Of a stretch of DNA of 64,000 nucleotides, positions 22,466 through 40,454 are shown piece after piece; within the stretch, counting starts at the first letter, position 1, and every line of letters begins with the position of its first letter. Made by a program: the position numbers and the translations under genes. Below the pieces are notes generated by a model, which ran no database searches, had not been told where the DNA came from, and saw nothing but the letters and a program-made list of their open reading frames with translations. Source of the DNA: Actinomycetota bacterium (GTDB lineage Bacteria > Actinomycetota > Acidimicrobiia > Spongiisociales > UBA4744); contig JAADGS010000090.1 in the NCBI GenBank assembly GCA_013152275.1, forward strand, positions 1 to 64,000. Reading direction: 5' to 3'.

Positions 22466-23249
22466 CCGACGTCATCTCCTTGGCGCTCATGTCCTGTGTG
22501 TCGGGGTGCAGGTAGCGGATGGCCTGCGCCTTCAGGGCCGCGAACTCGGGTGACAGGACAGTTTCGTAGGGTCGGGGTCTGGGCAGGTCGATCTCGAGGG
22601 TGAGCACCACGCTCGCCGGACGTTCCGACAGAACGTAGACACGATCGGACAACCGGATGGCCTCGTCCACATCATGGGTGATGAACAGGATCGATGCAGC
22701 CGACGCCTGCCAGATATCGAGCAGCCATGACTGCATCTGCAGCCGGGTAAGGCTGTCGAGCGCCCCGAACGGCTCATCCAGCAGCAACACGTCGTCACCG
22801 GCGAGGAAGGTCCGGGCGAGTGCCGCCCGTTGCCGCATCCCCCCGGAGATCTCACTGGGGTAACAATGGCCGAACCCACCAAGCCCGAACCGCTCCAGGA
22901 TCTCCTCGGCCCTGGCCCGCGCCTCCCGGCGGGATGTCCCCTTGACCATGAGGCCGAGTGCCACATTGTCGGTGATGCGCTTCCATGGCATGAGCAGGTC
23001 CTTCTGCTGCATGTACCCGCAAGTGCCGAGTCGGTCCGGCGAACCATCGACCAGCGCCTCGCCGTCAGTCGGCTCGAAGAGTCCCGAGATGATGTTGAAC
23101 AGGGTGGATTTGCCACAGCCGCTGGGACCAAGGAGGCTGACGAAGTGATGCCGGCCGACCTGAACATTGATCCCGTCGAGGACTTCGACACGGCCAGAGC
23201 CCTTCCCGAACTCCTTCGAGATGTTCCTGACGCTGATGCGTTCGTTCAT
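22458..23249 (-). CDS. ABC transporter ATP-binding protein (SsuB/ThiZ type)
   Basis: 263 aa. Walker A is GPSGCGKSTLF, the Q-loop YMQQKDLLMPW, the signature [15 protein letters not shown], and Walker B LLLDEPFGALD followed by ITHDVDEA. The FGALD D-loop and H-loop wording are standard for nitrate/sulfonate/pyrimidine importers. It follows the binding-protein gene across a 68-base gap containing a strong hairpin. Confidence 0.93.
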   Translation of the reverse strand: MNERISVRNISKEFGKGSGRVEVLDGINVQVGRHHFVSLLGPSGCGKSTLFNIISGLFEPTDGEALVDGSPDRLGTCGYMQQKDLLMPWKRITDNVALGLMVKGTSRREARARAEEILERFGLGGFGHCYPSEISGGMRQRAALARTFLAGDDVLLLDEPFGALDSLTRLQMQSWLLDIWQASAASILFITHDVDEAIRLSDRVYVLSERPASVVLTLEIDLPRPRPYETVLSPEFAALKAQAIRYLHPDTQDMSAKEMTSDA

Positions 23250-23270
23250 GGGGCCCTTTCCGTGATTGAT

Positions 23271-23306: not shown

Positions 23307-23317
23307 GACACCACCGC

Positions 23318-24313: not shown

Positions 24314-24359
24314 ACCTTGCTCCTCTCTGTGTCGGTTCGCATGTCGTCGGTCGTCGGAC

Positions 24360-25040
24360 TCATGTTCTTCCACGCGGTCTCGGAGACCCTGGATCCCCGA
24401 AGGTCGCCTCCACCCATGCCATCGCTCGCGGCAGCTCCGCGGCGGTGTGCCGGAGGCGATTCCCCCAATCGGTCTCCCCTCTCTCGGTCGTCCCGTCGAG
24501 AGCCACACGCGCCCGCTCCTCCAGAAAATAGAGGCGGGTGAGCGCTTCGAGCGGTGTCGCCCCGACGGTCAGAGCACCGTTCGCCCGCAAGATCACCGCG
24601 AAGGCGTCGTTCAATGTCGCTGCGACCGCTGCACCCTGGACGAGGGTAGCGACGAGGTCGACGTCGTCATGGACTGCAACCTGCTCGCCCGCAAGCGCTC
24701 CCAGGCCGTGCAGGAGCGGCAGATCCTCGATGCCCGCGCCCCATGAGACGACGGCGGGCGGATGCCCTCGGCAGATAGCCCCGACGTCGGAACGCTCCAT
24801 ATACACGGCAGCATGCATCGCCGTCTCGAGCGGCGCTCCACCGACCCCCGACGGCGGGACCGCCATGTCGGGAACGATGATCACATCGTCCGGACCGGCG
24901 CCGACAAACGGGAGTGTGCTCGTAATGGCGAACCCGTCGCGCCATCTGGCCGAGACATGCCCGAAGGCCTCGGCCAGTCCGGCACCGGCCATCATCCGGG
25001 CGGTCCGAACAACGGTCTCGCGGACGGCACGCTCATCCAT
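24360..25040 (-). CDS. Class II aldolase/adducin family protein
   Basis: 226 aa from ATG 25040 (GGGAGG upstream), overlapping the aldehyde dehydrogenase stop by eight bases. Visible marks: GHVSARWRDGFAITST (about 35), a metal-site region CRGHPPAVVSWG (about 105) and LLHGLGALAGEQ. The usual HTHS metal motif is reduced to RGHPP, so the metal site may differ from fuculose- or ribulose-phosphate aldolases. It may be an aldolase, decarboxylase or epimerase acting before the aldehyde dehydrogenase. Confidence 0.82.
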   Translation of the reverse strand: MDERAVRETVVRTARMMAGAGLAEAFGHVSARWRDGFAITSTLPFVGAGPDDVIIVPDMAVPPSGVGGAPLETAMHAAVYMERSDVGAICRGHPPAVVSWGAGIEDLPLLHGLGALAGEQVAVHDDVDLVATLVQGAAVAATLNDAFAVILRANGALTVGATPLEALTRLYFLEERARVALDGTTERGETDWGNRLRHTAAELPRAMAWVEATFGDPGSPRPRGRT

Positions 25041-26475
25041 CCCCCCCACCTCCCAATGGAACACCGGGAGGGCGCACGCCCCGAATGGCGATGAACCGGG
25101 TCCGCGTCAGATCCTCGTACGTGTAGCCGATGCCCTCCCTGCCGGCACCTGCGAGCCCGACTCCTCCGAACGGAACCACCGGTGGTCGATAGTTGTTCGT
25201 GCCGTTGATCACAACGCCACCGACCTCGAAGCGTTCCGCCGCGGCCAGCGCCCGCTCCAGATCGCCGGAGAAGACTGCAGCGGTGAGGGCCAGCCGCGAC
25301 GAGTTGACGATCTCGATCGATTCCTCCTCCGTGTCGAAGGGGATCACGGTGACGACGGGCCCGAAGATCTCATCATCGGCCACCACGTCGGCACCGGTCG
25401 GCACCGAGTCGAGCAGCGCCGGCCGGTACCACGCGTCCCTCGCCGACACCTCACCGCGCACAAGGGTCCCGCCCTGGGCAACGGCGTTCGCGACCTGGGC
25501 CGCAACCCGGGCTGCACTGCGGGCATCGATGAGTGGGCCAACCTCACTGCGCTCGTCGGTCGGGTCGCCGACGGTGACCGCCGCCAACGCCGCCTCCAGC
25601 CGCTCGGCAACCTCTGCGGCAACCGAACGGTGCACGACCAGTCGCTTGGTCGCCGCACACGCCTGACCGTTCATGAGCATCCGACCCCTCATCGTCTCGG
25701 ACACCACCAGGTCCAAATCGGCGTCATCGAACACGACGGCGGCACCGTTCCCGCCCAGCTCGAGGTGAAGCGGCCGCAGCATCCGGGCGGTCGCCTGTGC
25801 GACCGCCATTCCGGCTCCGACGCTTCCGGTGAGCGAGACGGCATCGACGCCTGGGGCTGCACAGAGGGCGGCACTGATTACACGGTCACCAGGGAGAACC
25901 GTCAGTACGCCCTCCGGCAGCCCCGCATCGATGAGGACCTGTGCGGTGGCGATGGTCGCCAGCGGGTTCTGTGGAGGCGGCTTGATCACCACCGTGTTGC
26001 CCGCAGCGAGCGCGGCCCCCGCTTTCTCGACGGTGAGCTCCACCGGAAAATTGAAAGGAATCACGCATGCCACGACCCCCAGAGGCACCCGCTCGACGAG
26101 AGTCAGGTCCCGCTCGCCGCCGGGCAGGGCCCCCGTGGGTGCCAGGTAGCCGGCATCGAACCGGCCCACATGAGCGTTTTCGTCGAGGAGAGCCGCTGCC
26201 CCCAAGACCTCCTTGCGGGCCTGGGTGATGACCTTGCCGCTCTCGCGGGCGTGAGCCGGTCCGAGTTCCCCGGCCCGCTCCTCGAGCAATGCAGAAGCCC
26301 GGGAGAGGACGGCCGCCCGCTCGTGTGGGGCAGCCCGCCGCCAGTCGCCGAACGCCCGCCTGGCAACGGCAACGGCACGGATGACGTCATCGGGAGTCGC
26401 CTCGCGGACCGAGCCGAGAACCACGCCGTCGGCAGGGGCGTGGATCACTCGCTCGGTACCCGAGGCGATCATCAT
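25033..26475 (-). CDS. NAD(P)-dependent aldehyde dehydrogenase
   Basis: 480 aa. Catalytic Glu is in HLELGGNGAAVVFDDADLD (E239) and Cys in MNGQACAATKRL (C273); VIPFNFPVELT and SLTGSVGAG bind the cofactor. The GQACAATKR wording is that of the glyceraldehyde/lactaldehyde/phosphonoacetaldehyde group rather than MmsA. It is the first gene of the 9-26 kb part of the minus-strand run, and the 26-bp motif shared with the hydantoinase promoter lies 62-87 bases upstream of its start. Confidence 0.9.
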   Translation of the reverse strand: MMIASGTERVIHAPADGVVLGSVREATPDDVIRAVAVARRAFGDWRRAAPHERAAVLSRASALLEERAGELGPAHARESGKVITQARKEVLGAAALLDENAHVGRFDAGYLAPTGALPGGERDLTLVERVPLGVVACVIPFNFPVELTVEKAGAALAAGNTVVIKPPPQNPLATIATAQVLIDAGLPEGVLTVLPGDRVISAALCAAPGVDAVSLTGSVGAGMAVAQATARMLRPLHLELGGNGAAVVFDDADLDLVVSETMRGRMLMNGQACAATKRLVVHRSVAAEVAERLEAALAAVTVGDPTDERSEVGPLIDARSAARVAAQVANAVAQGGTLVRGEVSARDAWYRPALLDSVPTGADVVADDEIFGPVVTVIPFDTEEESIEIVNSSRLALTAAVFSGDLERALAAAERFEVGGVVINGTNNYRPPVVPFGGVGLAGAGREGIGYTYEDLTRTRFIAIRGVRPPGVPLGGGGDG

Positions 26476-26774: not shown

Positions 26775-28109
26775 TCAGCCCAATCCGGCCGCGGTGATGA
26801 TTCTGCGGGCGATCGGACGGGAGCGCTCCACCGCCTCGACCGGGTCGACATGCACGATCCGGCCACCCACGACCGACCGGGTACCGGCGACCCAGACATC
26901 CTTGACCTCCGTGGGCCCGGCAGAGTAAACGATCGCTCCAAATGGATCGTGAACGTTGGCCAACGCCGGAGCCTCTCCATCGAAGACAACGAGATCGGCA
27001 GCCTTTCCGGGCTCGAGCGACCCGACCTCGTGATCCAGGCCGAGCGATCGAGCACCATCGATCGTTGCCATCGCAAACGCCTCGCCCGCCGAGAACGCGG
27101 TTGCCTGGAGCCGATCGACCCGCTGTAGCAGCACGGTCGTCTTGATCGCCTCGAGCATATCTTGGCGATCGTTGCTGGCGGGGCCGTCGACTCCCACACC
27201 CACCGCGACACCGAGCGCACGTAGCTCCGGCACCGGACACACTCCCGACGCCAAGATCATGTTCGACACCGGGTTGTGGGCCACGCCCACCCCGTGTTCG
27301 GCGAGAAGCTCGCGATCGTCGGCATCGACCCACACGCAATGAGCTGCGATGGTCGGCGCTGCGAACAGCCCCGAACGTGCGCAGTGCCCGATGGGTGAGA
27401 CGCCGTAGCGGGAACGGATGACGGTCACCTCTTCCCTGACTTCCTGAAGATGGATGTGCACGCCGTGTCCGCCCGACGTTGCAAGATCGACGCTCTCCGC
27501 GAACAACGCCTCGGACTGCGCGCCGAGGGCGGCGATCCCCACTCTGAAGCGGGACAGCCGGCTCTGTGCTGCGGCTTCGGCAAGGGCGGCGTGCTCTTCG
27601 AGGAGCACCGGGATCCTCACGCCTCTGATGTCGGCCGCCCCGAAGGACACGACACCACGCAGCCCCAGATCGTCGAGTGCACGCACCACGCCGGGTGTCA
27701 CCGGACGACCCTGCTGCGGGTCGCACACGAACATGTCATTGGCCATCGTGATCCCGCTTCGCAGCATCTGCATCCCGCCGATCAGCGTGCCGACGTAGGC
27801 GGCCTCGTCGTCGAGATGTGGGGCCACGGGTCCGATCAAGGCGTCGATCCACTCCCAGAGCGTGTACTGCTTGGCGATACCGGTGATGAGCGGCTCCGAG
27901 AAGTGCCCGTGGGTATTGATGAACCCCGGGGTGACCACATCGTGTGGCCCGCCGGCGACGACATCCTCGGGGAACCGTGCCCGAAGGTCCTTCCAGGTTC
28001 CGACCGCGTCGATCCTGTCGCCCAGGATCCTGACCGCCCCATCGGTGATCACCGCCGGTTCTGCCGCGGTCAACACATGACGCGCGCGGATCAGCGTCGC
28101 CTTCTTCAT
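26775..28109 (-). CDS. Metal-dependent amidohydrolase/deaminase, paralogue 2
   Basis: 444 aa from ATG 28109, chosen because it overlaps the permease stop as ATGA; an ATG 12 bases upstream is also possible. Zn ligands: HxH in INTHGHFSE (H67, H69), HIHLQEVREE, AHCVWVDADD and GVDGPASND. It belongs to the guanine/8-oxoguanine deaminase and chlorohydrolase (TrzN/AtzA) branch and is paralogous to the 19-kb enzyme. It is the last gene in the operon with the nucleoside-type importer, so a nucleobase-like substrate is likely. Confidence 0.88.
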   Translation of the reverse strand: MKKATLIRARHVLTAAEPAVITDGAVRILGDRIDAVGTWKDLRARFPEDVVAGGPHDVVTPGFINTHGHFSEPLITGIAKQYTLWEWIDALIGPVAPHLDDEAAYVGTLIGGMQMLRSGITMANDMFVCDPQQGRPVTPGVVRALDDLGLRGVVSFGAADIRGVRIPVLLEEHAALAEAAAQSRLSRFRVGIAALGAQSEALFAESVDLATSGGHGVHIHLQEVREEVTVIRSRYGVSPIGHCARSGLFAAPTIAAHCVWVDADDRELLAEHGVGVAHNPVSNMILASGVCPVPELRALGVAVGVGVDGPASNDRQDMLEAIKTTVLLQRVDRLQATAFSAGEAFAMATIDGARSLGLDHEVGSLEPGKAADLVVFDGEAPALANVHDPFGAIVYSAGPTEVKDVWVAGTRSVVGGRIVHVDPVEAVERSRPIARRIITAAGLG

Positions 28110-29047
28110 GTCTTCATCCACGGTCTGCCGAGCGCCGCGGGGGGCTTACCGCTGCGCGCCGCGACGGCGTAGGCGACCAGTGTCAGCACGAACGGGATCA
28201 TCAGCGTGATCTGGAATGGGATAGAGACGATACCGAGTGCCTGCACCCGCACCGCGATGGCATCTGCCGCCCCGAAGAACAGCGCGACGCCGATGGCCCA
28301 CATGGGGCGCCATCTCGTGACGATGACGAGAACGAGAGCGATGAAACCCGTCCCTCCCGTCATGTTCTCGATAAAGGTGAACAGCTGTGCGAGTGAGATC
28401 GCCCCGCCGCCGAGCCCGGCAAGGGCGCCGCACAGAAGCAGTGCCCCCCACCGGCTCCGGACGACCGACACGCCGACACTGTCGAGCGCATCCGGATCCT
28501 CGCCGGACGCACGCCAGCGAAGACCTGGCCTCGATCGGAACAGCACAAGGCTGAGGATGACCGCAATCGCCACGGCGAGATAGAAGAACGGCGACTGCTG
28601 AAACAGGACCTCGCCGAAGAACGGGATACCGGACAGGCCGGGGATGTTGATCGGCTCGAAATGGGCGACCTCCAACTGCTGGGTCGTACCAAACATCAGC
28701 CGTGACAAGTACGTGGTGAGCCCGAGAGCGCCGAGGTTGAGAGCGATCCCGCTCACGATCTGGTCACCCGCCCATCGGATGACCACCACACCATGAAGTG
28801 CTGCCACCGCCATCCCGCCGAGTGCGGCGGCCACGGCTCCGAGCCAAGGGTTACCGGTCACCTCCGCACCCACCACACCTGTGAAGGCGCCCATGAGCAT
28901 CATCCCCTCGAGGCCGATGTTGAGGATGCCGGCGCGTTCCGAGATCACCTCTCCGGTACCGGCAAAGATGATGGGTACCGCCAAACGCACGGCGCTGGCA
29001 AAGAAGGCGGTGGAGATGAACAGGTCGACGATGGTGTCCACGGTCAC
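28106..29047 (-). CDS. ABC transporter permease, nucleoside type (second permease)
   Basis: 313 aa. The BPD_transp_2 motif SERAGILNIGLEGMMLMGAF sits near residue 35, and GGAISLAQLF and later helices follow. This is the second permease of BMP-dependent nucleoside importers (NupQ/YufQ type). GTG 29047 overlaps the first permease's stop (GTGA) and its stop overlaps the amidohydrolase start. Confidence 0.9.
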   Translation of the reverse strand: MTVDTIVDLFISTAFFASAVRLAVPIIFAGTGEVISERAGILNIGLEGMMLMGAFTGVVGAEVTGNPWLGAVAAALGGMAVAALHGVVVIRWAGDQIVSGIALNLGALGLTTYLSRLMFGTTQQLEVAHFEPINIPGLSGIPFFGEVLFQQSPFFYLAVAIAVILSLVLFRSRPGLRWRASGEDPDALDSVGVSVVRSRWGALLLCGALAGLGGGAISLAQLFTFIENMTGGTGFIALVLVIVTRWRPMWAIGVALFFGAADAIAVRVQALGIVSIPFQITLMIPFVLTLVAYAVAARSGKPPAALGRPWMKT

Positions 29048-30141
29048 TCCTCCCCATCGGCGGCAAGTAACTCGCTGACGGCTCTTCGGCGCTTGATCCA
29101 CATGGACAGCCGCTCCGATCGGGCTATGACGAGTAGCAGAATGATGATGGCCTGGGCGATCAGGCTGGTGGCGGCCGGCACTTGGGCGATCCGCTCCATC
29201 GAGGAGGCACCGGCTTGCAGACCTCCGAACAGGAGAGCCGCTGCAACGACTCCGCCGGATCGCGCGTTTCCGACCAGTGCCACGGCAATGGCAGTGAACC
29301 CGTACCCGGGTGAGAAGAAGTCGCTGAGGCGGTATTGCGTTCCGGCCAGTTCCACGACACCGGCAAGCCCCGAGAGTCCACCGGCGATCACCATCGCAAG
29401 GATGGTGAGCCGGCGTACCGACATTCCCGCGAACTCGGCGACGTGCGGGTTGTCCCCGAGTGTGCGGAGCTGCAGCCCGAAGCGGGACCGCTCGAGGAGC
29501 ACGTACACGCCGATGGCGGCGACACCCGCGAGCACGATGCCGAACGGGATCGACAGGGGTCCGATCTCGAGGACCGGAAGACGGAATTGGACGGCGATCT
29601 CCTTGGACCAGGGGTATCCGCCGCCCGCCCGATCGCGCAGCGGCCCGTGGATGGCCCATCCGGCGAGCAAGATGCCGATCGCGTTCAGGAGGATCGTGGT
29701 GATGACCTCGTTCATGCCGAGGCGTGCTCGCATCCACCCCGGGGACCCGCCCCACACCACGCCGGCAGCCGCCCCCACGATGAGGATCATCATGACCGCG
29801 ACGAACGGGATGCCGATCGGAACTGCCTGGGAGATCGCTATGGCTGCGAGGGCCGCTACGTACAGCTGGCCATCTCCCCCGAGGTTGAACAGGCCCGCCC
29901 TGAGCCCGACGGCCACACCGAGGCCGATGAACATGAGAGGGATGGTCTGACGAAGCGTCTCCTCGAATGCTCGCGCGTCTCCCACGGCTCCCCTCGCGAG
30001 CGCAGGCAGCGCCTGGCCCAGATCGACGCCGCTCAGCGCGAGGAACGCGATGGACAGGCCGACGCCCAGGGCGACGATCGCAATGCTGACCGCTCGCTGG
30101 GAGGTCAGAAGGTTCGCGAGAGTGAAGCGGCGCGTGGTCAT
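29044..30141 (-). CDS. ABC transporter permease, nucleoside type (first permease)
   Basis: 365 aa. The first helix lies near residues 18-38; FIGLGVAVGLRAGLFNLGGDGQ is the family hallmark, and NEVITTILLNAIGILLAGW is typical of NupP/YufP. It overlaps the ATPase by four bases. With the double ATPase and BMP lipoprotein it forms a complete nucleoside or nucleobase importer. Confidence 0.92.
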   Translation of the reverse strand: MTTRRFTLANLLTSQRAVSIAIVALGVGLSIAFLALSGVDLGQALPALARGAVGDARAFEETLRQTIPLMFIGLGVAVGLRAGLFNLGGDGQLYVAALAAIAISQAVPIGIPFVAVMMILIVGAAAGVVWGGSPGWMRARLGMNEVITTILLNAIGILLAGWAIHGPLRDRAGGGYPWSKEIAVQFRLPVLEIGPLSIPFGIVLAGVAAIGVYVLLERSRFGLQLRTLGDNPHVAEFAGMSVRRLTILAMVIAGGLSGLAGVVELAGTQYRLSDFFSPGYGFTAIAVALVGNARSGGVVAAALLFGGLQAGASSMERIAQVPAATSLIAQAIIILLLVIARSERLSMWIKRRRAVSELLAADGEE

Positions 30142-31667
30142 GGCCGATCCAGCTTCTCACCGCTCATGAGCAGACCGATGCGCTGGTCGGCCCCATCACC
30201 CGGGATCACCTCGCCGACGATTCGGCCCGACGACATCACCAGGATCCGGTCCGCCACCGACAGGATCTCGTCGAGATCATACGACACGAACAACACTCCC
30301 CCTCCCCGACCCCGGACGGCGAGGAGTTGTTCGAGCACGAACCTGGCTGCGGCGATGTCGAGGCCCCGACACGGGTTCATGGCAATGACCAGCTCGGGTT
30401 CATCGCCGAGCTCGCGAGCCAGGACGGCCTTCTGCTGATTGCCTCCCGACAGCTCACCGGCCGGCTGGTCCGGTCCGGCGGCCCGCACGTCGAATCGCTC
30501 GAGGAGCGACACACATAGGCGATGTGCCTTCTGGCGATCGATCAATCCCTGGTGCACCAGGCCGCGCTGTCCCCAGCGTCCCAGATGCAGGTTCTCCCAG
30601 AGCGCCAGGCCGAGAGCCAAGCCGTGGCGATGCCGATCCTCCGGGATGCGAGCGATGGACGCCGACAGTCCGCGATTCCAGCATCTCGAACCGTCGCTGA
30701 ACCAGACCCCTCCCCCGTCGGCCTCACGTATCCCGCAGATCACCTCGATCAGCTCCCGCTGGCCGTTGCCATCCACGCCCGCGATGCCCACGATCTCGCC
30801 GGCCCGTACCTCCAGTTCGACGTCCTGCACCAAACGACGCTCACCGGAGATGTGCAGGCCTTCGATCCTCAGCAGCGGCCTCCCCACCGTCGCAGGAGGA
30901 GGATCGAAACCCGTCTCGATCCGCCGTCCGACCATGAACGTGACGAGCTCCTGGCGATCTGTGGCGGCAGTGTCGAGCGTCGCCACTTCGCGGCCATTCC
31001 GCAGAACCGTCACCCGGTCGCTCAACGCAAACACCTCGTCCAGCTTGTGTGTGATGAAAATGACGCTGAGTCCCGAAGTCCGGTACTCGCGCAGAGCGTC
31101 GAAGAGCACGTCACGCTCGAGTGGGGTGAGCGTGGCGGTCGGCTCGTCGAGGACCAGGAGCGTCACCTCCTGGGCCAGTACTCGCAGCAGGCTCACCCAC
31201 TGTCGTTGACCCACGGAGAGGTCGGCGACGACCGCGTCCGGATCGACGTTCCCCCCGAACCGACCCTCGACGTCCTTGACCACGGCCCGCACGGAATCCA
31301 TGGCGAGCCAGAAGTGATCGCCCATGGCGAGCGCGAAGTTCTCGGCGACCGTGAGCGCCGGGACGAGTCGATCGTGCTGATGCACCATGCCGATGCCCAA
31401 TGCGGCGGCCGCCTGCGGCGAAGCGATCTCGACACGCCGCCCTCGCCAGAAGATCGCGCCCGAGTTCGGTCGCGTGATCCCGTCGAGCACCCTCATCAAT
31501 GTGGTCTTGCCCGCCCCGTTCTCACCGAGGAGTGCGTGAATCTCCCCAGGTCGAACCGACAACGATGCGCCGTTCAGAGCGACGGTCGTCGCATACTGCT
31601 TCCGGATCCTCTCCAACCGGAGCAGGTCGGTGCCGCCGGAGGGCGTCCCACCCACCGGCGGCTCCAT
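30138..31667 (-). CDS. ABC transporter ATP-binding protein with two ABC domains
   Basis: 509 aa. Domain 1 has Walker A GENGAGKTTLM and Walker B LLVLDEPTATLT; domain 2 has the signature LSGGNQQKAVLARELG and a degenerate nucleotide site. This two-domain plan is that of sugar/nucleoside importers (NupO, RbsA-like). It lies between the BMP lipoprotein (23-base gap) and the first permease (4-base overlap). Confidence 0.93.
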   Translation of the reverse strand: MEPPVGGTPSGGTDLLRLERIRKQYATTVALNGASLSVRPGEIHALLGENGAGKTTLMRVLDGITRPNSGAIFWRGRRVEIASPQAAAALGIGMVHQHDRLVPALTVAENFALAMGDHFWLAMDSVRAVVKDVEGRFGGNVDPDAVVADLSVGQRQWVSLLRVLAQEVTLLVLDEPTATLTPLERDVLFDALREYRTSGLSVIFITHKLDEVFALSDRVTVLRNGREVATLDTAATDRQELVTFMVGRRIETGFDPPPATVGRPLLRIEGLHISGERRLVQDVELEVRAGEIVGIAGVDGNGQRELIEVICGIREADGGGVWFSDGSRCWNRGLSASIARIPEDRHRHGLALGLALWENLHLGRWGQRGLVHQGLIDRQKAHRLCVSLLERFDVRAAGPDQPAGELSGGNQQKAVLARELGDEPELVIAMNPCRGLDIAAARFVLEQLLAVRGRGGGVLFVSYDLDEILSVADRILVMSSGRIVGEVIPGDGADQRIGLLMSGEKLDRP

Positions 31668-31690
31668 GGCCTGCTGTCCAGCGAGACCGC

Positions 31691-32785
31691 TCAGCTCTGC
31701 GGCTCCGGAATGAACGGCACCTTGATGCTGCCGTCGACGATCGAAGCACTCGCTGCATCAACGGCCGCCTGGATCTTGCTTGCGAGCGCGTCATCAACAG
31801 CCCTGATCGGCGCGAGACGGAGCACGTCCGAATCAAGACCGAAGAAGCGCTGTTTGCCGCTGAACTTGCCGTTCACAATGTCACCCACTGCATCGACGAT
31901 GAGAGCACGCTGATCCACGATCTGGGACGTGATGACCGCCTCCGGTGCCACATCGTACTGGTCGCCACCCCAGCCGATAGCGTAAACACCTTCTTCCCGC
32001 GCCGCCTGGATGACGCCGATACCGGCGGCATCGGCTATCTGATACACGACGTCGACACCTTCCGAGATCATGGCCCGGGCGGTCTCCTTGCCCTTCTCGA
32101 CGTCGTCGAAGGTTCCGAGGTACGTGAGGGTCACCTTGATATCGGGGTTGACGGACTGCGCCCCGAGACGATATGCCTCCATCTGTGCGACGATGACCGG
32201 GAACTCGAAGCCGGCGATCCCACCGATCTGATCGGTTTTCGTTGCCATGGCGGCGACGATTCCGGCGAGGTAGGCGGCATCCTGGGACTCTGGCTGCAGA
32301 CCCTGCATGTTGGGACCGGACAGGTCATTGTTGTTGGTGACAAGGAAGATGGTCTCCGGATACTCCGGCGCAACCTTCTTGGCAATGTCTCCGAACTCGA
32401 ACCCCTGGCCGATCACGATGTCGTATCCGGCCGACGCATAGTCTTCGAACGCCTTCACGAACTCCGGCACCGGCGTCATCTCCGAGTACGCGGTCTTCGC
32501 ACCAAACTGCTTCTCGAGTATCGCCAGCGACTCGAAGGCCAGCTGGTTGAAGCCCTTGTCATTTGCCGAGCCCGGCAGGACCAGAGCCACCTTGATCGGC
32601 TCCGCCGCCGCGGTCGTCGTGGTTGCCTGTGTGGTCGACGACTGTGAGGCTGCGGTCGTCGTGGTTGCCTGTGTGGTCGACGACTGTGAGGCTGCGGTCG
32701 TCGCGGTGGTGCTACCCCCACAGGCCGCAGCCAGCAGGGCCATCGTCAGTAGTAGTCCGATCAAGTGTATCCATCGTCGTGTCAT
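31691..32785 (-). CDS. BMP family nucleoside-type binding lipoprotein
   Basis: 364 aa from ATG 32785 (AGAGGAAG upstream). Lipobox LLAAAC (Cys22) is followed by a low-complexity linker with an exact 14-residue repeat (AASQSSTTQATTTT twice). The Bmp domain begins IKVALVLPGSANDKGFNQLA, with YDIVIGQGFEFGD and LVTNNNDLSG typical of purine-nucleoside receptors. It is expected to be the extracellular receptor for the importer encoded next. An aromatic nucleoside or nucleobase-like ligand is likely but not shown. Confidence 0.92.
   Translation of the reverse strand: MTRRWIHLIGLLLTMALLAAACGGSTTATTAASQSSTTQATTTTAASQSSTTQATTTTAAAEPIKVALVLPGSANDKGFNQLAFESLAILEKQFGAKTAYSEMTPVPEFVKAFEDYASAGYDIVIGQGFEFGDIAKKVAPEYPETIFLVTNNNDLSGPNMQGLQPESQDAAYLAGIVAAMATKTDQIGGIAGFEFPVIVAQMEAYRLGAQSVNPDIKVTLTYLGTFDDVEKGKETARAMISEGVDVVYQIADAAGIGVIQAAREEGVYAIGWGGDQYDVAPEAVITSQIVDQRALIVDAVGDIVNGKFSGKQRFFGLDSDVLRLAPIRAVDDALASKIQAAVDAASASIVDGSIKVPFIPEPQS
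32610..32703. repeat. Exact 42-bp tandem repeat in lipoprotein linker
   Basis: Unit 1 (32610-32651) and unit 2 (32652-32693) are identical, and ten more matching bases follow. The length is a multiple of three, so changes in copy number would shorten or lengthen the linker by 14 residues without breaking the frame. Confidence 0.85.
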
Positions 32786-32921
32786 GAGTTGGCTTCCTCT
32801 CGTGCAGTCGGCCACCGATCGGCGGCACAACTTCGTCAGGGCCGGGCCTTCGATGGCCCGTCTTTCTCCTCACTTCTCTTCATCAGTACTTCCGCCCCGT
32901 CCGGCGGGTGGGTCACAGCCG

Positions 32922-33935
32922 TCACCTCCCTTCCAACCAGGCCGTCAAGTGGTCGAGTGCCTCCGGTAACCCGAGCGGGGTGTCGTTGCCATCGCCCCGG
33001 GCGTACACGGCGCGGACCGCACCCGGTGTCGCCGACCTGCCCTCGCGGGCCAGCCGCTTCGCGAGCGCCGCCTTCGCCTGGCCGAGTTGCTCCACCGTCG
33101 GCATGATCGTGACGACACCCGGCAACTGATCGAGCACGCCACGCAGCGCGATCGGGCCCTCCGGGCCCTTCCGGGTCATGGGAAGTCCCTCGGCCTTCCT
33201 CAGCGCCGCATCGGCCAGAAACGAGCGGTGGGTGAGCCCGGGTGATACCCAGGCGCCGATGCCTGCGTAGCGGTGCCTCACCCGTCGCAACGTGGCGGCG
33301 ATGATGTCGACGAGTCGGTTGTGCATCTCCACGTACGCAGCCCGCTCGTTGGGGCCCCATCGCCACTTCCCGTTACCGAGGTCGATGGCGGTGCAGTCGT
33401 CCCGCTCCGGCGACACCGAGGTGCCCCGCGCTTCGAACAAACCGGGGTCGTCGTAGCTGGTCGCCGGACTCTGCTCACCGCGCCACTCGTAGATGTACGG
33501 ATAGGGCACCATCGCCATGGGCTCGGACATGACGATCCGGTCCAGTGCCACGTCCCCTTTGCGCAGCGGTCCGACGTGCAGCAGCGCAGGATCCTCGTCC
33601 GGGTCGAGCACGGCGCGCAATGGAGCCGGCACCGCCAAGTCGCCCTCCGGCTCCCACCCCGCAGCAAGCAGCGCCCCGTTGATGGCCCGGTGCTCTCGGC
33701 TCGTGCTGTACGGCTTGTACTTGGTGCACGGCATGATGAGCGCCAACCGCCGGCCGCCTGCCTGTGGCGGCTCCCACTCGTGCATGAGGAATCGAACCCA
33801 CGCCTTCACCCTCGGGTGCTCGAGCGCATCCAGATTCGCCTGGGGAGAGTAGATGCACAGGGTCGGATCCAGCTCGAACGGAGCGCGGATCTTCCGCCGT
33901 GAATCGGCGAGACGATCGGCCGGCAGGAGACTCAT
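32922..33935 (-). CDS. DUF5591-like protein related to archaeosine synthase
   Basis: 337 aa, soluble. Residues 66-85 read LIMPCTKYKPYSTSREHRAI, matching the PCxxxKPYxxSxxH motif of the DUF5591 domain in archaeal tRNA-guanine transglycosylase relatives (ArcS), where it forms the site that modifies the 7-deazaguanine base. PLRKGDVALDRIVMSEPMAM also resembles that family. Here it stands alone, without TGT, PUA or radical-SAM domains, in an operon with DUF1989, enamidase and hydantoinase genes. A role on a deazapurine-like compound is possible but inferred. It starts four bases after the DUF1989 stop. Confidence 0.65.
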   Translation of the reverse strand: MSLLPADRLADSRRKIRAPFELDPTLCIYSPQANLDALEHPRVKAWVRFLMHEWEPPQAGGRRLALIMPCTKYKPYSTSREHRAINGALLAAGWEPEGDLAVPAPLRAVLDPDEDPALLHVGPLRKGDVALDRIVMSEPMAMVPYPYIYEWRGEQSPATSYDDPGLFEARGTSVSPERDDCTAIDLGNGKWRWGPNERAAYVEMHNRLVDIIAATLRRVRHRYAGIGAWVSPGLTHRSFLADAALRKAEGLPMTRKGPEGPIALRGVLDQLPGVVTIMPTVEQLGQAKAALAKRLAREGRSATPGAVRAVYARGDGNDTPLGLPEALDHLTAWLEGR

Positions 33936-33939
33936 CGGC

Positions 33940-34548
33940 TCAGCCCTCGTCGATGACGCGCAGCAGCATCGGCGTCGGGTTGAAATTGTTGCAGGGGGTG
34001 AGATCCTGGGGACATGCCGAGAGGAGTACCACGAGGTCTTCGTGGGCCTTCAGCGTGATCGTCGCGCCCGCGCCGTGGGCGGCAGGGTCGGTGACGACCG
34101 AGCCGTCCGGTTCGACGCGGTTGTGCATGAACACGTTCCAGGCGGTCTCGCCGTGCAGCTCGTACTCCTCCCCGAGGAGGTCCCTGGCCTGCTCCAGGTT
34201 GCCGAGGCAATGCGCGTGATCGGGGAGACCGTAGTCGTTCAGGTACCGCTCACGATCGCAGCACGGCACGATGATGTCGTGCTTCTCGACGTCGTCCCGC
34301 ACGATGGTGAACACCGGGTTGCGATGATTGGAGAAGACCTGGGACCCGGTCTTCAGCACCACCGACTGATTGCAGGACACGGTGTGCGTCGGCGACATGT
34401 ACTCCGAAGGGTCGTTGCGGAACCAGGCGACGATGTCGCCCACCTGGTGGCCGACAACGTCGACGATGTCGAGCAACTGGCCCTTCTTGACATAGACGCC
34501 CCGTCCCTCGCGTGAGGGGACGAGGACCTCCTCGACTGTCGTACTCAT
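33940..34548 (-). CDS. DUF1989 (urea-carboxylase-associated) family protein
   Basis: 202 aa. Family marks include SPTHTVSCNQSVVLKTGSQVFSNHRNPVFT, DHAHCLGNLEQA, AWNVFMHNRVEPDG and SACPQDLTPCNNFNPTP, each with conserved Cys/His. DUF1989 proteins occur beside urea carboxylase, and two members act as carboxyguanidine deiminase subunits; other members are uncharacterised. No urea carboxylase or allophanate hydrolase is in the window, so this copy probably works on a different amide or amidine. Confidence 0.88.
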   Translation of the reverse strand: MSTTVEEVLVPSREGRGVYVKKGQLLDIVDVVGHQVGDIVAWFRNDPSEYMSPTHTVSCNQSVVLKTGSQVFSNHRNPVFTIVRDDVEKHDIIVPCCDRERYLNDYGLPDHAHCLGNLEQARDLLGEEYELHGETAWNVFMHNRVEPDGSVVTDPAAHGAGATITLKAHEDLVVLLSACPQDLTPCNNFNPTPMLLRVIDEG

Positions 34549-34573: not shown

Positions 34574-35767
34574 TCACACATGGCCTGAACCGGGCGGCTC
34601 GGGAATCTCGGGAGTGACCGTGACCGCCCGGGAAGCGGCCGGCGTGTTGCGACTCCGCAGCGCCCGGACGACACCGTCGATGATGACCGCGCCGATGCCC
34701 GGAATGTCGCCTCGTGTCAACGCGCCGCGCGCATCATCGGCCAGCGCTCCCCACGGCGCATCGCACACCACGAGGTCGGCCGGCCGACCGACCTCGACCT
34801 TGCCCGACTCCAGGTCATAGACATCGGTGATGTTCCCCGATGCCCACGCCCACGCCATTTCGGGCTCCACGCCGGCCAGCGAGCACAGCTCGGCCATCGT
34901 CTTGAGGATCGCCAGGGGAATCACCCCGGTGCCGGTCGGCGTATCCGAGCCGAGGATGACCCGATGCTCCACACCGGCCTCTCGGACGGCCTCGGTGATG
35001 TGGATGGCACTGCGAAGATTGCCGGCCTGGACCAATTGGAGAACGAGATCGGTCTCGTTGATGAGGGTGAGCAAGCCGTCGTCATCGAGTGACGTCGGCC
35101 CACCGTTGATGTGCCCGCACACGTCGGGCCGGAGCAACAGCAGATGGTCGACGGTGATCGGTTTCGACCCGGGGATCGACGCCCCACCGGAATGACACAT
35201 CACCTTGATGCCGGCCGCCTGTGCGGCCTTGATCTGAGGCAGCCCGTCTGCGGGGTCCTGGTAGTTCCCGAACCCGAACTTGGCCAGCCACACGCCCTGA
35301 GATGCGATCTCGAGGAAATCCTCGTCGGTGAGCACCGGTTCGATGACCACCGCTCCACCGTGCACCTTCATGCCGTTCGGCCGATACGTATCCCACCAGT
35401 GCGCTGCCGCCACGGCCAGCGCCTTGACACCGATGCGGTCTCGCGGCCGCCCCGGCGTGTGGATCTCACCGGGCGAGATGGCCTGGCAGATCCCCCCGTG
35501 GACATACGACGACAGGAACCCGATCGTGTTCTGACGCGGCGTGAAATCGCCCATCACCACATGACAATGCGAGTCGATGAGGCCGGGACCCACGGTGGCG
35601 CCGTGGACGTCGATCACCCGCTCGGCATCCCCCGCGGCGATACCACCGACGGTCGCGATCCGCCCGTCTTCGATGAGCAGCGACTCTGCCTCGGCGACGG
35701 GCGCGGTGAGATCACCGGTGAGCAATGTCCCGATGTTGATGACGGCTGTGGTCTTCGGCTCGGACAT
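34574..35767 (-). CDS. Enamidase-like amidohydrolase
   Basis: 397 aa from an ATG with GAGAGGAGG upstream. HxH metal ligands are H67/H69 in LIDSHCHVVMG. Segments PRQNTIGFLSS, GGICQAISPGEIHTPGRP, KVHGGAVVIEP, CHSGGASIPGSKPIT, GHINGGPTS and the near-terminal RSRNTPAA all follow enamidase of nicotinate-fermenting Eubacterium barkeri as remembered. That enzyme opens a cyclic enamide (6-oxotetrahydronicotinate) and releases ammonia. This copy likely opens a related ring. Neighbours are a cysteine hydrolase and a hydantoinase-like protein. Confidence 0.8.
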   Translation of the reverse strand: MSEPKTTAVINIGTLLTGDLTAPVAEAESLLIEDGRIATVGGIAAGDAERVIDVHGATVGPGLIDSHCHVVMGDFTPRQNTIGFLSSYVHGGICQAISPGEIHTPGRPRDRIGVKALAVAAAHWWDTYRPNGMKVHGGAVVIEPVLTDEDFLEIASQGVWLAKFGFGNYQDPADGLPQIKAAQAAGIKVMCHSGGASIPGSKPITVDHLLLLRPDVCGHINGGPTSLDDDGLLTLINETDLVLQLVQAGNLRSAIHITEAVREAGVEHRVILGSDTPTGTGVIPLAILKTMAELCSLAGVEPEMAWAWASGNITDVYDLESGKVEVGRPADLVVCDAPWGALADDARGALTRGDIPGIGAVIIDGVVRALRSRNTPAASRAVTVTPEIPEPPGSGHV

Positions 35768-35824: not shown

Positions 35825-36577
35825 CTAGCCCTCCTGTCGTGCCGCCTTCGCCGCCGGCGGGTACGTTTCGTCGAACAACCCCTCTTCGAGACCCTCGAGG
35901 TACTCGAGCACATCGGCAACGTCGGTCACGTCCACGTACTTCATGTGGAGGTCGAACAGAGCGATCTTGTGAGACACCTCACCCCGGTCGAACGCGGCCT
36001 CGTGTGGGATGGTCACCCGCAGGTCGTAGGAGAGGGCGTCGACTGCCGTCGCCCGCACACACCCGCTCGTGGTGCTCCCGGTGAGGATGAGCGAGTCGGC
36101 GCCCATCTGATTGAGATGACTCATCAGCGTCGTACCGAAAAACGCGGACGGCTTGCGCTTCTCGATGAACAGATCATCCGGCAGGGGGGCAACCTCGGCA
36201 ACGATGTCGTTGCCCTTGTGACCCATGACATCGACCTCGTCCTCGGCTCGGTAACTCTTCAGCGTCCACACGCCGAGGTCGAATCCATCCTCGCGCCGCG
36301 GGTTCGTCGTATAGATCACCGGGAGTCGCTTACGACGTGCCACCTCGAGAATCGACCGGATCGCCGGAATGCCCCGAGACCAGGCGACACCGCCGCACGA
36401 GTACCGCCACCGCTTGATCGAATCGAGGATCGGTTCTTCACGATCACCGCAGAAGTTGTAGTTCACGTCGATCACCATTACCGCCGGCCGCTTGCCGTAG
36501 CCGGCGCGCCTGCCCCAGCCGGCAGCCTCGAACACGACCCGGTCGGTGTCGGTGATCACGTCGTCCCAGATCGCCAT
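35825..36577 (-). CDS. Isochorismatase-family cysteine hydrolase (carbamoylsarcosine/maleamate amidase-like)
   Basis: 250 aa. The catalytic triad is visible: Asp in VMVIDVNYNF (D37), Lys in KRKPSAFFGT (K142) and Cys in TGSTTSGCVRATAVDAL (C173). The SGCVRATAVDA wording is shared with N-carbamoylsarcosine amidase and maleamate amidohydrolase (NicF), which cut small amides or carbamoyl groups and release ammonia. It starts three bases after the hydantoinase-like gene's stop, suggesting it hydrolyses the ring-opened product. Confidence 0.88.
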   Translation of the reverse strand: MAIWDDVITDTDRVVFEAAGWGRRAGYGKRPAVMVIDVNYNFCGDREEPILDSIKRWRYSCGGVAWSRGIPAIRSILEVARRKRLPVIYTTNPRREDGFDLGVWTLKSYRAEDEVDVMGHKGNDIVAEVAPLPDDLFIEKRKPSAFFGTTLMSHLNQMGADSLILTGSTTSGCVRATAVDALSYDLRVTIPHEAAFDRGEVSHKIALFDLHMKYVDVTDVADVLEYLEGLEEGLFDETYPPAAKAARQEG

Positions 36578-36580: not shown

Positions 36581-38191
36581 TCAGCCTCCGATGGGCCCGG
36601 TGTACTTGGTGGTCTCAGGGCTGAAGCCGGGCTTGACAAAGGCGTCGTTCAACCAGCGATCCGTGGGGGCCAAGCGCACCGGACTCGTGAGCTGGGCCGG
36701 CGGGCCGGCATCGCGCAGAGTGCGGGGCAGGTACTGCCCGCGAGGATCACCCACCGGCCGCATGCCCGGTGAGTCGTCAGCCCACTCCGCCGTCACCTTG
36801 CCGCGCATGATCGTCTTGATGGGCCATCCGGTGAAGGTGTGACCCTCCATGAGGGACCAGCCGGCCCTCGTGTTGATGTGCTTCTTGTTGACCTCGACTT
36901 CACGCCCGAGGTCGACGATCACGATGTCGGCGTCGAAGCCGGGCATGAGTGAGCCCTTCTTGCCCCACAGGCCGGACGTCTTGGCCGGGTTCTCGCACGA
37001 CACTTGAACGACGCGCTCCAGAGAGCAGCGGTGCTTGTTCACGCCTTCGGACAGCATCACCGGCAAGAACAGCTCCACACGGCTGAAGCCGGTGCGCAGC
37101 TTCCAGATATTCTCGTTGTACATCTCCTCGCGCGACGCCGGCTCCCAGCCGACCACGTGGTCGGACCCCACCACGTCGACGATGCCTCCGGCGAGAGCCT
37201 CCCACAGCGCCTCGATGTTGTCACGGCGGCGCAGTGGCACGTTGATCCGCCAACCGTACTCCGGCTCCGCCCACAGCCAGGCCGGGCCGGTCTGCGCGTA
37301 CAGCTCCAGGCCCTCGGCACGGGCCTTGAGGACCTCCTCGAAGCTGAGACGGGTGGTGCAGTGCTGCAGGTAGAGCGGCACGTTGCCGGGAGTCTGTGCC
37401 GCCAGATACGCGTACGCCCTGACGTGCTGTGCCTCGAGGAAGTCGGGGGAGCGATCGGTCCACGCGCCAAAGTCGGTACGGCCGGCCTCGAGAAGACGGT
37501 CCTCGAAGATGCGGCCGATCTCCCAGTTCTCCGGATGAATGTGGACGATCCCCGGATAACCGAGATGCCCGACCTCCTCCATCACGCGATAGACGGTGCC
37601 GTCGTCGATACCGGTGCCGAGGCCCGCCCTGCGGCTCGGCCAGTTGGTGTCGACGTCGTCGGCCGTTCCCTTCATGCCGCGGGTCTGCAGGTACAGCTTG
37701 AACGAAGTGACGCCGTGCTCCTCAACGTATTGGGGAATCTCATCGGCGTGCTGGTCTGTCTCGAGCATGTAGGTGAAATACGCGTCGACATGGCTGACCG
37801 TCTCGACGACCTCCTTGCCGGCGGGAAACGACTCGTTGAACGAGACGACGTCCGCTCTGGCGACGACCTCCTTGAAGGGCTTGGTGCCGAGCCGAGTGAC
37901 GGGCGCCTGGATGCCCCACGTGGTGACCCCGGCGCAGGCCGCGGCACGTGACTCACTGGTCATGTCGTAGTCGAACGGCACATAGCAGCCCGGGTGGGCC
38001 TCGGAGTCGACGATGCCCGGGAGGATATAGTGTCCCCTGGCGTCGATGGTCTCCTTGGCGTCCGGGAGCAACTCGTCGGGAGCCAACAGAGCGACTTTGC
38101 CGTCCTTGATACCGACTCCGACACGATACCGGCCGTCACCGAGGACGACGGTCCCGTTTACGACCTTTGCGTCGAGAGGCTCGCCCACCAT
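36581..38191 (-). CDS. Hydantoinase/dihydropyrimidinase-like amidohydrolase with altered metal site
   Basis: 536 aa. The fold is clear from ILPGIVDSEAHPGCYVP (about 56-72), the carboxy-lysine region TSFKLYLQT (K165), VHIHPEN, YLQHCTT and VGSDHVVGW. The usual Asp-x-His-x-His metal motif is Asp-Ser-Glu-Ala-His: Glu64 replaces the first His. The metal centre may be mononuclear or differently built. It is the first gene of the operon, transcribed from the region with the shared 26-bp motif. Cyclic amide or imide ring opening is the most likely reaction class. Confidence 0.85.
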   Translation of the reverse strand: MVGEPLDAKVVNGTVVLGDGRYRVGVGIKDGKVALLAPDELLPDAKETIDARGHYILPGIVDSEAHPGCYVPFDYDMTSESRAAACAGVTTWGIQAPVTRLGTKPFKEVVARADVVSFNESFPAGKEVVETVSHVDAYFTYMLETDQHADEIPQYVEEHGVTSFKLYLQTRGMKGTADDVDTNWPSRRAGLGTGIDDGTVYRVMEEVGHLGYPGIVHIHPENWEIGRIFEDRLLEAGRTDFGAWTDRSPDFLEAQHVRAYAYLAAQTPGNVPLYLQHCTTRLSFEEVLKARAEGLELYAQTGPAWLWAEPEYGWRINVPLRRRDNIEALWEALAGGIVDVVGSDHVVGWEPASREEMYNENIWKLRTGFSRVELFLPVMLSEGVNKHRCSLERVVQVSCENPAKTSGLWGKKGSLMPGFDADIVIVDLGREVEVNKKHINTRAGWSLMEGHTFTGWPIKTIMRGKVTAEWADDSPGMRPVGDPRGQYLPRTLRDAGPPAQLTSPVRLAPTDRWLNDAFVKPGFSPETTKYTGPIGG

Positions 38192-38260: not shown

Positions 38261-38346
38261 CATCGGTGCCGGTGCGGCGACAACCGGAACTCGGCCGGGC
38301 CCCACCGCACCGCAGGCGGGCACACGCACACGAGAGGACCCAATCG

Positions 38347-38919
38347 ATGCCGAGCATCCGCAAAATCGTCACCTTCATAGAGGACGGCCTCACCGAGGCG
38401 GGCATTCCGGTAGACCCGCCGTACCGCAAGGTTGCCGTTGCCGCCGTCATCGAGAACCCCTACGCCGGAAAGTTCTCCGAGGATCTCGGAGAGATCATCG
38501 ATTTCAGCGTCGGCCTCGGTGATCTGCTCGCCGGCCGGCTCGTCACTGCAATGGGCGACCAGGTCAACGGGTACGGCAAGGCCAGCATCGTCGGTGTGAA
38601 CGGCGAGATCGAACACGGCCACGCCTTCTTGACGACCCCCATGGCCGATCGCTTCCGGGAGGCCGTCGGCGGCGGCAAGGCCTGGATCTCTTCGACCGGC
38701 AAGCGGGGCGCCCCAGGCACGACGATCGACGTGCCCCTCGCCCACAAGGATGCTCTCAAGGTCCGGTCGTTCTACGACACGATGACCGTGACCATCCACG
38801 ACGCCCCCGAGCCCGACGAGGTCGTCGTCATCATCGCTGGCGTGAACCGGGGCCGCCCCAACTTCCGTCTTGGGGGCCTGCTACTCGAAGACGTCATCGG
38901 CGAGGACGGCCTCCAGTAA
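38347..38919 (+). CDS. PF06684 ("amino acid synthesis", DUF1185) family protein
   Basis: 190 aa from ATG 38347 with GAGAGGA upstream. Family marks are KVAVAAVIENPYAGKFSEDL, GYGKASIVGVNGEIEHGHA and STGKRGAPGTTIDVPLAHKD. The fold of known members is YjgF/chorismate-mutase-like, similar to the domains of cyclic amide hydrolases (barbiturase, cyanuric acid hydrolase), but no activity is established that I know of. Divergent from the hydantoinase operon and 62 bases upstream of the MmsA-type dehydrogenase. Confidence 0.85.
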   Translation: MPSIRKIVTFIEDGLTEAGIPVDPPYRKVAVAAVIENPYAGKFSEDLGEIIDFSVGLGDLLAGRLVTAMGDQVNGYGKASIVGVNGEIEHGHAFLTTPMADRFREAVGGGKAWISSTGKRGAPGTTIDVPLAHKDALKVRSFYDTMTVTIHDAPEPDEVVVIIAGVNRGRPNFRLGGLLLEDVIGEDGLQ

Positions 38920-38981: not shown

Positions 38982-40454
38982 ATGACGCTGCTACCCGAAC
39001 CACAGGCGGAGTACGGCACGCTCAAGAACTACGTCGGCGGAGAGTGGAAGGAGTCGACGGGCTCTCTTCGGAACGTGGTCAACCCCGCAACGGGAAAGGT
39101 CATCGCCCGCGTGCCGGACTCGACCCCGCAGGAGGTCGCCGAGGCCGTGGCAGTCGCCAAGGAAGCGTTCCAGGAGTGGAAGCAAACCTCGGTGGTCAAG
39201 CGAACCCGCCCGTTCTTCCAACTCAAGTGCCTACTCGAGGAGCACAAGGAGGACCTGGCGCGCTCGCTGGTCCAGGAAATGGGCAAGACCATCAAGGACG
39301 CCCGTGCCGAGATGCTGCGGGCCGTCGAAGAGATCGAGGCCGCCTGTGCGATCCCGACCACCACCAGGGGCTACCAGCAGGAGAACATCGGCCCCAACCT
39401 GGACCTCAAGGTCACCTACATCCCTCGCGGCGTGTTCTTCATGGTCCCGTCGTTCAACTTCCCGGCGATGGTTCCCCTCGAGTACCTGCCGTACGCCGTG
39501 GCAGCCGGCTGCACCTACATCAACAAGCCGTCGTCGCGGGTACCGATCACGCAGGTACGCATCTTCGAACTGATCGACCGGTGCGGTTTCCCACCGGGCG
39601 TGATCAACCTGGTCCATGGAGGAGCCAACGTCGTGAACGCCCTCATGGAGCACCCCGATACCGAAGGTTTCTCCTTCGTCGGATCCACCCGCGTCGGCGC
39701 GGCCCTGTACGCCAAAGCCGCATCGTTGGGGAAACGGGGGCAGGCGGCAACCGAGGCCAAGAACCACTTCGTGGTCATGCCCGACGCCGATCTCGACACC
39801 GTCGTGAACGCCGCGCTCGCCTCGTTCTTCGGAGCGGGAGGACAGCGCTGTCTTGCCGGATCGGTGCTCGTGCCGGTCGGTGAGATCTACGAGCCTCTGC
39901 GCGACCGATTCGTGGAGGCGGCGTCACGGTGGAAGCTGGGGTACGGACTCGATGAGAGCGTGGACCTGGGTCCCGTCGTCACGCATCGCGATCGCGACCG
40001 GATCAACGGCATGATCGACACTGCCGTGGCCGAAGGCGCCATCCCCCTGCTCGATGGACGCAATCCCGACGTTCCGGACTGGAAGAACGGCGCGTTCGTG
40101 GGTCCGACGATTCTCGACGGTGTCACTCCCGACATGAAGATCGCTCAAGATGAGGTGTTCGGCCCGGTCGCGGCCATCAGCCCCGTCGACAGCCTCGACG
40201 AGGCGATCGCGCTGATCGAGCGAAGCCGCTACGGACACTCGGCCATGCTCTTCACCAAGAGCGGTTCGGCGGCTCGGTCGTTCGAGTCACGGGTACCCGT
40301 CGGCAACATCGGCATCAACGTCGGCGTGCCGGCGACCCAGGCGTGGGCGACGCTCGGCGGCCTCAAGGAGTCCGGGTACGGAGCCGTGCACGGTCGGGGC
40401 GAGTCGTACCTGTTCTTCACCGACCGCAAGATCGTCGCCCAACGCTGGGCCTGA
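38982..40454 (+). CDS. mmsA: CoA-acylating (methyl)malonate-semialdehyde dehydrogenase
   Basis: 490 aa. It converts malonate or methylmalonate semialdehyde plus CoA to acetyl- or propionyl-CoA, CO2 and NADH. MmsA marks: KNYVGGEWKES near the start, MVPSFNFPAMVPL, and AATEAKNHFVVMPDADLD, where the usual general-base Glu is replaced, as expected for the CoA-dependent subfamily. The catalytic Cys is C290 in GAGGQRCLAGS. AGGAGG precedes ATG 38982. It is the natural last step after beta-alanine transamination and links the heterocycle cluster to central metabolism. Confidence 0.92.
   Translation: MTLLPEPQAEYGTLKNYVGGEWKESTGSLRNVVNPATGKVIARVPDSTPQEVAEAVAVAKEAFQEWKQTSVVKRTRPFFQLKCLLEEHKEDLARSLVQEMGKTIKDARAEMLRAVEEIEAACAIPTTTRGYQQENIGPNLDLKVTYIPRGVFFMVPSFNFPAMVPLEYLPYAVAAGCTYINKPSSRVPITQVRIFELIDRCGFPPGVINLVHGGANVVNALMEHPDTEGFSFVGSTRVGAALYAKAASLGKRGQAATEAKNHFVVMPDADLDTVVNAALASFFGAGGQRCLAGSVLVPVGEIYEPLRDRFVEAASRWKLGYGLDESVDLGPVVTHRDRDRINGMIDTAVAEGAIPLLDGRNPDVPDWKNGAFVGPTILDGVTPDMKIAQDEVFGPVAAISPVDSLDEAIALIERSRYGHSAMLFTKSGSAARSFESRVPVGNIGINVGVPATQAWATLGGLKESGYGAVHGRGESYLFFTDRKIVAQRWA

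Follow-up and report, generated by a model that had tools for sequence, protein, structure and literature searches.

Introduction

The DUF5591 domain has been known essentially from one archaeal enzyme of tRNA modification, archaeosine synthase (ArcS), which is, to our knowledge, the only characterized protein in the domain family. ArcS transfers lysine to preQ0, and does so also when preQ0 is offered as a nucleoside without tRNA (PMC11298593). A cysteine thioimide on preQ0 is formed by the non-homologous enzymes QueF and QueF-L (PMC5485725). A literature search returned no mention of DUF5591.

Versions of the domain that depart from the ArcS architecture occur in viruses. The Sulfolobus viruses STSV1 and STSV2 encode free-standing DUF5591 proteins of 185 amino acids that match the Pfam profile over nearly its full length and adjoin a TGT-like gene. 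The STSV2 protein matches PF17884 (DUF5591) over positions 1–124 (E=8e-20) and the structure 2q07 (AF0587) with E=3.6e-8. Its open reading frame overlaps the TGT-like one (L097:570-1980), and because of this adjacent gene the viral DUF5591 frame appears as if an ArcS had been split. In Synechococcus phage Ssp-JY38, the domain lies outside a tRNA-modification setting and beside a class III aminotransferase-like gene, but it is fused to a HAD/polynucleotide-kinase-like N-terminal domain and belongs to no catabolic cluster; the fusion (L103:1069-2058) is annotated only as an acid phosphatase. A plasmid of Haladaptatus sp. (L102) carries two open reading frames annotated as tRNA-guanine transglycosylase with a PCSxxKPYxxSRTH motif and, since both are on this one plasmid, ArcS-like genes can be plasmid-borne. 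Vibrio phage nt-1 was considered as a carrier of ArcS and set aside, because no ArcS is annotated in the first 50 kb of its genome.

A second body of knowledge concerns the degradation of nitrogen heterocycles. Enamidase converts 6-oxo-1,4,5,6-tetrahydronicotinate to 2-formylglutarate and ammonia (PMC7356986), and COG0402 enzymes near the AtzB and 8-oxoguanine group hydrolyze modified guanines (PMC13054789). The nicotinate enamidase module and the hydantoinase/N-carbamoylsarcosine (creatinine-type) modules have been described without a DUF5591 protein. Here we analyze a gene in which these two bodies of knowledge meet. It lies in a 64,000-nucleotide stretch of an Actinomycetota genome (contig JAADGS010000090.1, positions 1 to 64,000), referred to below as the window. 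The original prediction, made from the letters of the window, held that the gene encodes a single protein with the ArcS-type DUF5591 motif, flanked by nucleobase uptake and ring-opening genes, and that it might act on a free deazapurine-like compound.

Results and Discussion

A Stand-Alone Gene within a Catabolic Cluster

The stand-alone DUF5591-like protein, P0001, is encoded on the minus strand at 32922..33935, with its ATG at 33935, its stop at 32922, and a product of 337 amino acids. The plus-strand frame of the same interval is interrupted by stops. The gene starts 4 nucleotides downstream of the end of the DUF1989 gene, GAGGG lies a few bases 5' of the ATG, and the GC contents of the three codon positions (0.69/0.51/0.85, with GC2 at 0.51 and GC3 at 0.85) display the usual high-GC codon bias. 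Orthologues with 64–69% identity are present in 10 other genomes among 296 sampled from the class. The open reading frame is a real protein-coding gene, and the description of its product as a 337-residue single protein in a bacterium was confirmed, DUF5591 being the sole domain detected.

The P0001 gene has the DUF1989 gene on one side and a BMP/PnrA-type ABC system on the other. The DUF1989 (UAAP/DUF1989) protein (33940..34548, minus strand) belongs to the same family as carboxyguanidine deiminase subunits. At higher coordinates, also on the minus strand, are genes for an enamidase-like amidohydrolase (34574..35767; PDB 2VUN, E=4e-110), an isochorismatase-fold amidase near N-carbamoylsarcosine amidohydrolase (35825..36577), and a hydantoinase/dihydropyrimidinase-like amidohydrolase (36581..38191). 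On the plus strand are a divergent AA_synth (PF06684) protein (38266..38919), whose true start is probably internal to the open reading frame, and a methylmalonate-semialdehyde dehydrogenase-type aldehyde dehydrogenase (38982..40454; above the TIGR01722 cut-off). On the other side of the P0001 gene, all on the minus strand, lie a BMP/PnrA-like ABC substrate-binding lipoprotein (31691..32830), an ABC ATPase of the nucleoside/sugar type (30138..31667), an ABC permease (BPD_transp_2; 29044..30141), and a second such permease (28106..29047, start approximate) that occupies the C-terminal part of the open reading frame 28106-30160. Beyond them are a COG0402 (SAH/8-oxoguanine-type) deaminase (26775..28121), an aldehyde dehydrogenase (25033..26475), a class II aldolase/decarboxylase-family protein (24360..25064), an NMT1/THI5-like ABC substrate-binding protein (23318..24508), the remainder of an NMT1-type ABC system (21689..23249; ATPase 22458-23249, permease 21689-22465), and a class III aminotransferase (20454..21690, start approximate). 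A single catabolic cluster thus holds two distinct uptake systems, one NMT1-type (21689-24508) and one BMP-type (28106-32830).

The predicted neighborhood of nucleobase-type uptake and ring-opening genes was accordingly recovered, in the form of PnrA/BMP-type and NMT1-type ABC systems and amidohydrolases. The amidohydrolases and the amidase are relatives of the described enzymes (2VUN, hydantoinases, N-carbamoylsarcosine amidohydrolase). This combination of modules was not found in the literature searched, where no text united two of enamidase, hydantoinase, and DUF1989. Degradation of vitamin B6, ectoine, and the thiamine pyrimidine was considered and set aside, as it accounts for some of the neighboring genes but not most of them. 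In the window, the gene set contains no monooxygenases, and the cluster would depend on hydrolytic ring opening.

Profile Comparisons Relate P0001 to the DUF5591 Domain of ArcS

The sole Pfam match of P0001 is to PF17884, with E=1.8e-5 and a score of 25.0 bits where the cut-off is 26, and it spans only profile positions 2–45 of 150; when the frame was taken with its neighbors the score was 27.5 bits. P0001 also stays far from the equivalog cut-offs of the NCBIfam ArcS models NF053620 and NF040592 (23.7 against 600 bits and 21.1 against 440 bits), and it has neither the TGT-like nor the PUA domain. To decide whether the similarity to PF17884 exceeds a lone motif, two peptide patterns inside the motifs were used to gather relatives, a match to either one being sufficient. 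PF17884 was matched by all 45 family members (best E=1.1e-8), and a Rhizobium relative, at 34.5 bits, exceeded the cut-off. In the HMM comparison proposed with the original prediction, all family members match the profile, with P0001 by itself just below the cut-off.

Comparison of profiles extends the match well beyond the first motif. A PDB sequence search with the family profile returned 2q07 (AF0587) as its sole match (E=9.5e-4). Against the STSV2 DUF5591 protein, profile–profile comparison gave a probability of 97.4% and E=1.5e-11 over residues 34–165. Against an alignment of four archaeal and viral DUF5591 sequences (STSV2, two Haladaptatus proteins, and one Synechococcus phage protein), hhalign gave a probability of 97.4% and E=1.4e-11 over residues 34–243 and 131 columns.

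Three motifs recur in this alignment. Motif 1 (residues 69–82, 33690..33731, minus strand) reads PCTKYKPYSTSREH and has the form PCTxxKPYxxSxxH; C70, K74, P75, Y76, S79, and H82 are common to the archaeal and viral DUF5591 proteins. In motif 2 (residues 137–144, SEPMAMVP; 33504..33527, minus strand) S137 and P144 are invariant in all compared sequences, as is Y161 in motif 3 (residues 156–165, SPATSYDDPG; 33441..33470, minus strand). These nine residues are invariant in the joint alignment of the family with the archaeal and viral proteins. Within the family, all 45 sequences have C70, K74, E81, and H82, and several acidic residues are strictly conserved too. Invariance at the motif columns is partly by construction, because the peptide patterns sit in the motifs, but sites outside the patterns, such as W193, H205, T235, and H236, are unaffected by this and are invariant as well.

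The same alignment defines how the family departs from canonical DUF5591. Two insertions are family specific, one at approximately residues 92–128 (33552..33662, minus strand) and one at approximately residues 166–194 (33354..33440, minus strand), and the C terminus is altered. P0001 thus shares with ArcS and 2q07 the PC[TS]xxKPYxxSxxH motif, a second motif with a serine and VP, and a third around YD, but differs from ArcS in the missing TGT-like and PUA domains, in the two insertions of some 30–37 residues, in its C terminus, and in its setting, which is a bacterial catabolic operon and not tRNA modification. The STSV1 and STSV2 proteins, although free-standing, are without these insertions.

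By these comparisons P0001 is a free-standing protein remotely related to the ArcS DUF5591 domain and not itself an ArcS, and the proposed motif link to the archaeal domain is borne out by the profile–profile match and the nine invariant residues. That the resemblance is a chance motif in a protein from an unrelated family would agree with the slightly sub-threshold score of the single sequence and with the failure of the full P0001 model, described below, to recover 2q07. The profile–profile match over 131 columns largely refutes this explanation, and together with the PF17884 matches of all 45 members and the agreement in secondary-structure order with the STSV2 model it leaves a chance origin scarcely credible. 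Neither the profile nor the structure searches placed P0001 in an unrelated family, the outcome on which the original prediction had said it should be abandoned.

Structure Models and the Elaborated Core

An AlphaFold2 model of P0001, computed from the 45-sequence alignment, had a mean pLDDT of 94.8 and a pTM of 0.92. A Foldseek search with the full-length model found no match in the PDB or BFVD at E≤0.001, and no fold match to UDG or SMUG1. As a control, the model of the STSV2 DUF5591 protein, with a pLDDT of 66, returned 2q07 as its top match (E=7e-5, TM 0.54). Since the control found this target, the negative result for P0001 reflects elaboration or divergence and not an absent target; with a model of such confidence it indicates a heavily elaborated fold.

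Core helices and strands follow one another in the same order in the P0001 and STSV2 models, a further likeness to the ArcS domain. In P0001 these elements are helix 41–53, strand 62–69, helix 80–91, strands 129–137 and 141–144, the long helix 195–222, strand 225–229, helices 235–249, strand 276–278, and helix 281–297. The structural check suggested at the outset gave a confident model and a core order shared with the STSV2 model, but the search of known folds came back empty. As judged from the models, the two proteins would have in common an alpha/beta core, probably UDG-like, to which large family-specific elaborations have been added.

The canonical STSV2 model bears a weak Foldseek likeness to SMUG1 glycosylases (TM ~0.43-0.46, E 0.04-0.12), and a nucleoside-type ABC importer adjoins the P0001 gene. 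On this basis a protein with a uracil-DNA-glycosylase fold could bind a base or nucleoside, or act in the manner of an N-glycosidase, removing ribose or sensing the substrate without covalent cysteine chemistry. That C70, K74, E81, H82, and several acidic residues are strictly conserved instead suggests chemistry, and we regard a role of this kind as unlikely, though worth keeping in view.

The Gene Marks Related Clusters in Three Bacterial Phyla

A relative with 44% identity is located on a plasmid of Rhizobium sp. ACO-34A. When 84,980 species genomes were scanned with an eight-sequence alignment of relatives, 56 loci were recovered, distributed over Actinomycetota, Chloroflexota, and Alphaproteobacteria. 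The gene is rare; of 396 genomes sampled from the phylum 3 have it, and of 289 genomes sampled across the class of one alphaproteobacterial carrier (L061) that carrier alone does. No members were found when IMG/VR was scanned with the family profile.

Gene context was compared in 58 loci (the window, the Rhizobium plasmid, and the 56 loci) across all open reading frames and representative proteins. Individual gene boundaries are approximate, as a simple codon-bias rule served to call the open reading frames. The DUF5591-like gene often directly adjoins the following gene or overlaps it. In raw counts, 45 of the loci have a COG0402 deaminase, 37 an uptake ABC system, and 34 a class III aminotransferase; many of the loci, especially those from Acidimicrobiia, belong to close relatives and so are not independent of one another. 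The operon is conserved across phyla. Importers of the NMT1/NitT type (26 loci) outnumber those of the nucleoside type (13), which weighs against the ribose-removing or sensing role considered above.

Two alternative ring-degradation modules accompany the gene. The hydrolytic module, defined as at least two of hydantoinase, isochorismatase, enamidase, DUF1989, and AA_synth, is found in 23 of the 58 loci. An oxidative module, defined as at least two of HpaB, amidase, PuuE-like protein, FAD monooxygenase, and a protein named, from its sequence, as dihydroxyphthalate-decarboxylase-like, is found in 24, and under these definitions the two occur together in none. In a maximum-likelihood tree the actinobacterial and alphaproteobacterial branches are separate and module type tracks the tree, with one exception, an alphaproteobacterium with the hydrolytic module (L086). 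Three actinobacterial loci (L049, L050, and L053) combine companions of the hydrolytic set with single oxidative parts (HpaB, PuuE-like, or FAD monooxygenase), suggesting that the routes are interchangeable.

At L064:1684-5368, a three-gene molybdenum hydroxylase of the xanthine-dehydrogenase type abuts the DUF5591-like gene and is convergent with it. Genes for histone-deacetylase-like amidohydrolases recur in 14 of the 58 loci (for example, L034:2895-3917 and L071:14443-15564), hinting at an acylated amine intermediate.

The co-occurrence of deaminases, uptake ABC transporters, and two ring-degradation modules points to clusters that take up and degrade a nucleobase-like N-heterocycle bearing an exocyclic amine.

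Is the Substrate a 7-Deazaguanine?

The original prediction proposed a deazapurine-like substrate, and a deazapurine is possible. In its most specific form, the proposal would be that the clusters degrade 7-deazaguanines (preQ0, preQ1, queuine, or related compounds) and that the protein keeps the specificity of ArcS, its target being the nitrile, amidine, or aminomethyl 7-substituent on a free base or nucleoside. The family history lends itself to this idea, as the one member that we know to have been characterized acts on such a compound. That member, ArcS, works on the preQ0 nucleoside alone (PMC11298593), and COG0402 deaminases of the 8-oxoguanine/AtzB group take modified guanines (PMC13054789). 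An alphaproteobacterial neighbor scores 618 bits, above the 8-oxoguanine deaminase cut-off of 532. Hydantoinase, carbamoyl-amidase, and enamidase could open the pyrimidinone ring and then the pyrrolinone, and an HpaB monooxygenase and a nitrilase-family gene are present in some loci.

The same enzyme families, however, would suit pterins, creatinine-like compounds, and other aminopyrimidines, and the TGT-like domain, which is absent here, may be the base binder in ArcS. No recognized deazaguanine gene was found in the loci examined. Rfam searches of the window and 14 related loci for preQ1, guanidine, and purine riboswitches found none; two tRNAs and a single distant glycine riboswitch were the only matches. 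TGT is present and QueF absent in the window genome, but because TGT is nearly universal this is uninformative on deazaguanine metabolism. A deazaguanine substrate would tie the history of the domain to the operon, yet nothing favors it over pterins or other aminopyrimidine-type compounds, and we consider it decidedly improbable. The corresponding pathway, in which bacteria import and mineralize tRNA- or DNA-derived 7-deazaguanine bases or nucleosides and a tRNA-free enzyme derived from ArcS acts on the 7-substituent ahead of pyrimidine and pyrrole ring opening, is likewise a long shot; no catabolic route for 7-deazaguanines was found among the papers listed by a literature search on deazapurine catabolism.

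A Proposed tRNA-Free DUF5591 Enzyme

The reading we prefer, and to which we give somewhat better than even chances, is that this rare bacterial branch of DUF5591 is a cysteine-dependent catabolic enzyme acting on a C–N, C=N, or nitrile center. It is proposed because of the precedents of ArcS, enamidase, COG0402 enzymes, and QueF and because of the invariant C70, K74, E81, and H82. Separated from the TGT and PUA domains through which ArcS handles tRNA, the domain would serve in the cytosol as one of the enzymes of a transferable catabolic cluster. The cluster would import a nucleobase-like N-heterocycle, which the COG0402 enzyme would deaminate; the rings would then be opened and the fragments passed to the aminotransferase and aldehyde dehydrogenase. 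C70 may act as a nucleophile that attacks a pathway intermediate at an electrophilic carbon (of an amidine, a cyclic imide or lactam, or a nitrile), a role we infer, since an assignment of the ArcS catalytic cysteine to DUF5591 was not found in the literature searched. K74, H82, and the family-specific E81 would assist, and water or an amine would then cleave or replace the C–N bond. The two insertions and the altered C terminus may form a small-molecule pocket in place of a tRNA-binding surface.

A tRNA-free, catabolic DUF5591 protein in three bacterial phyla would reveal the domain's own chemistry. The DUF5591-like gene, moreover, marks clearly delimited clusters for a putative, uncharacterized pathway of N-heterocycle degradation. 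Named and cultured species, such as those of Kaistia, Parvibaculum, Bradyrhizobium, and Mycolicibacterium, are among the carriers, which makes a direct search for the substrate feasible.
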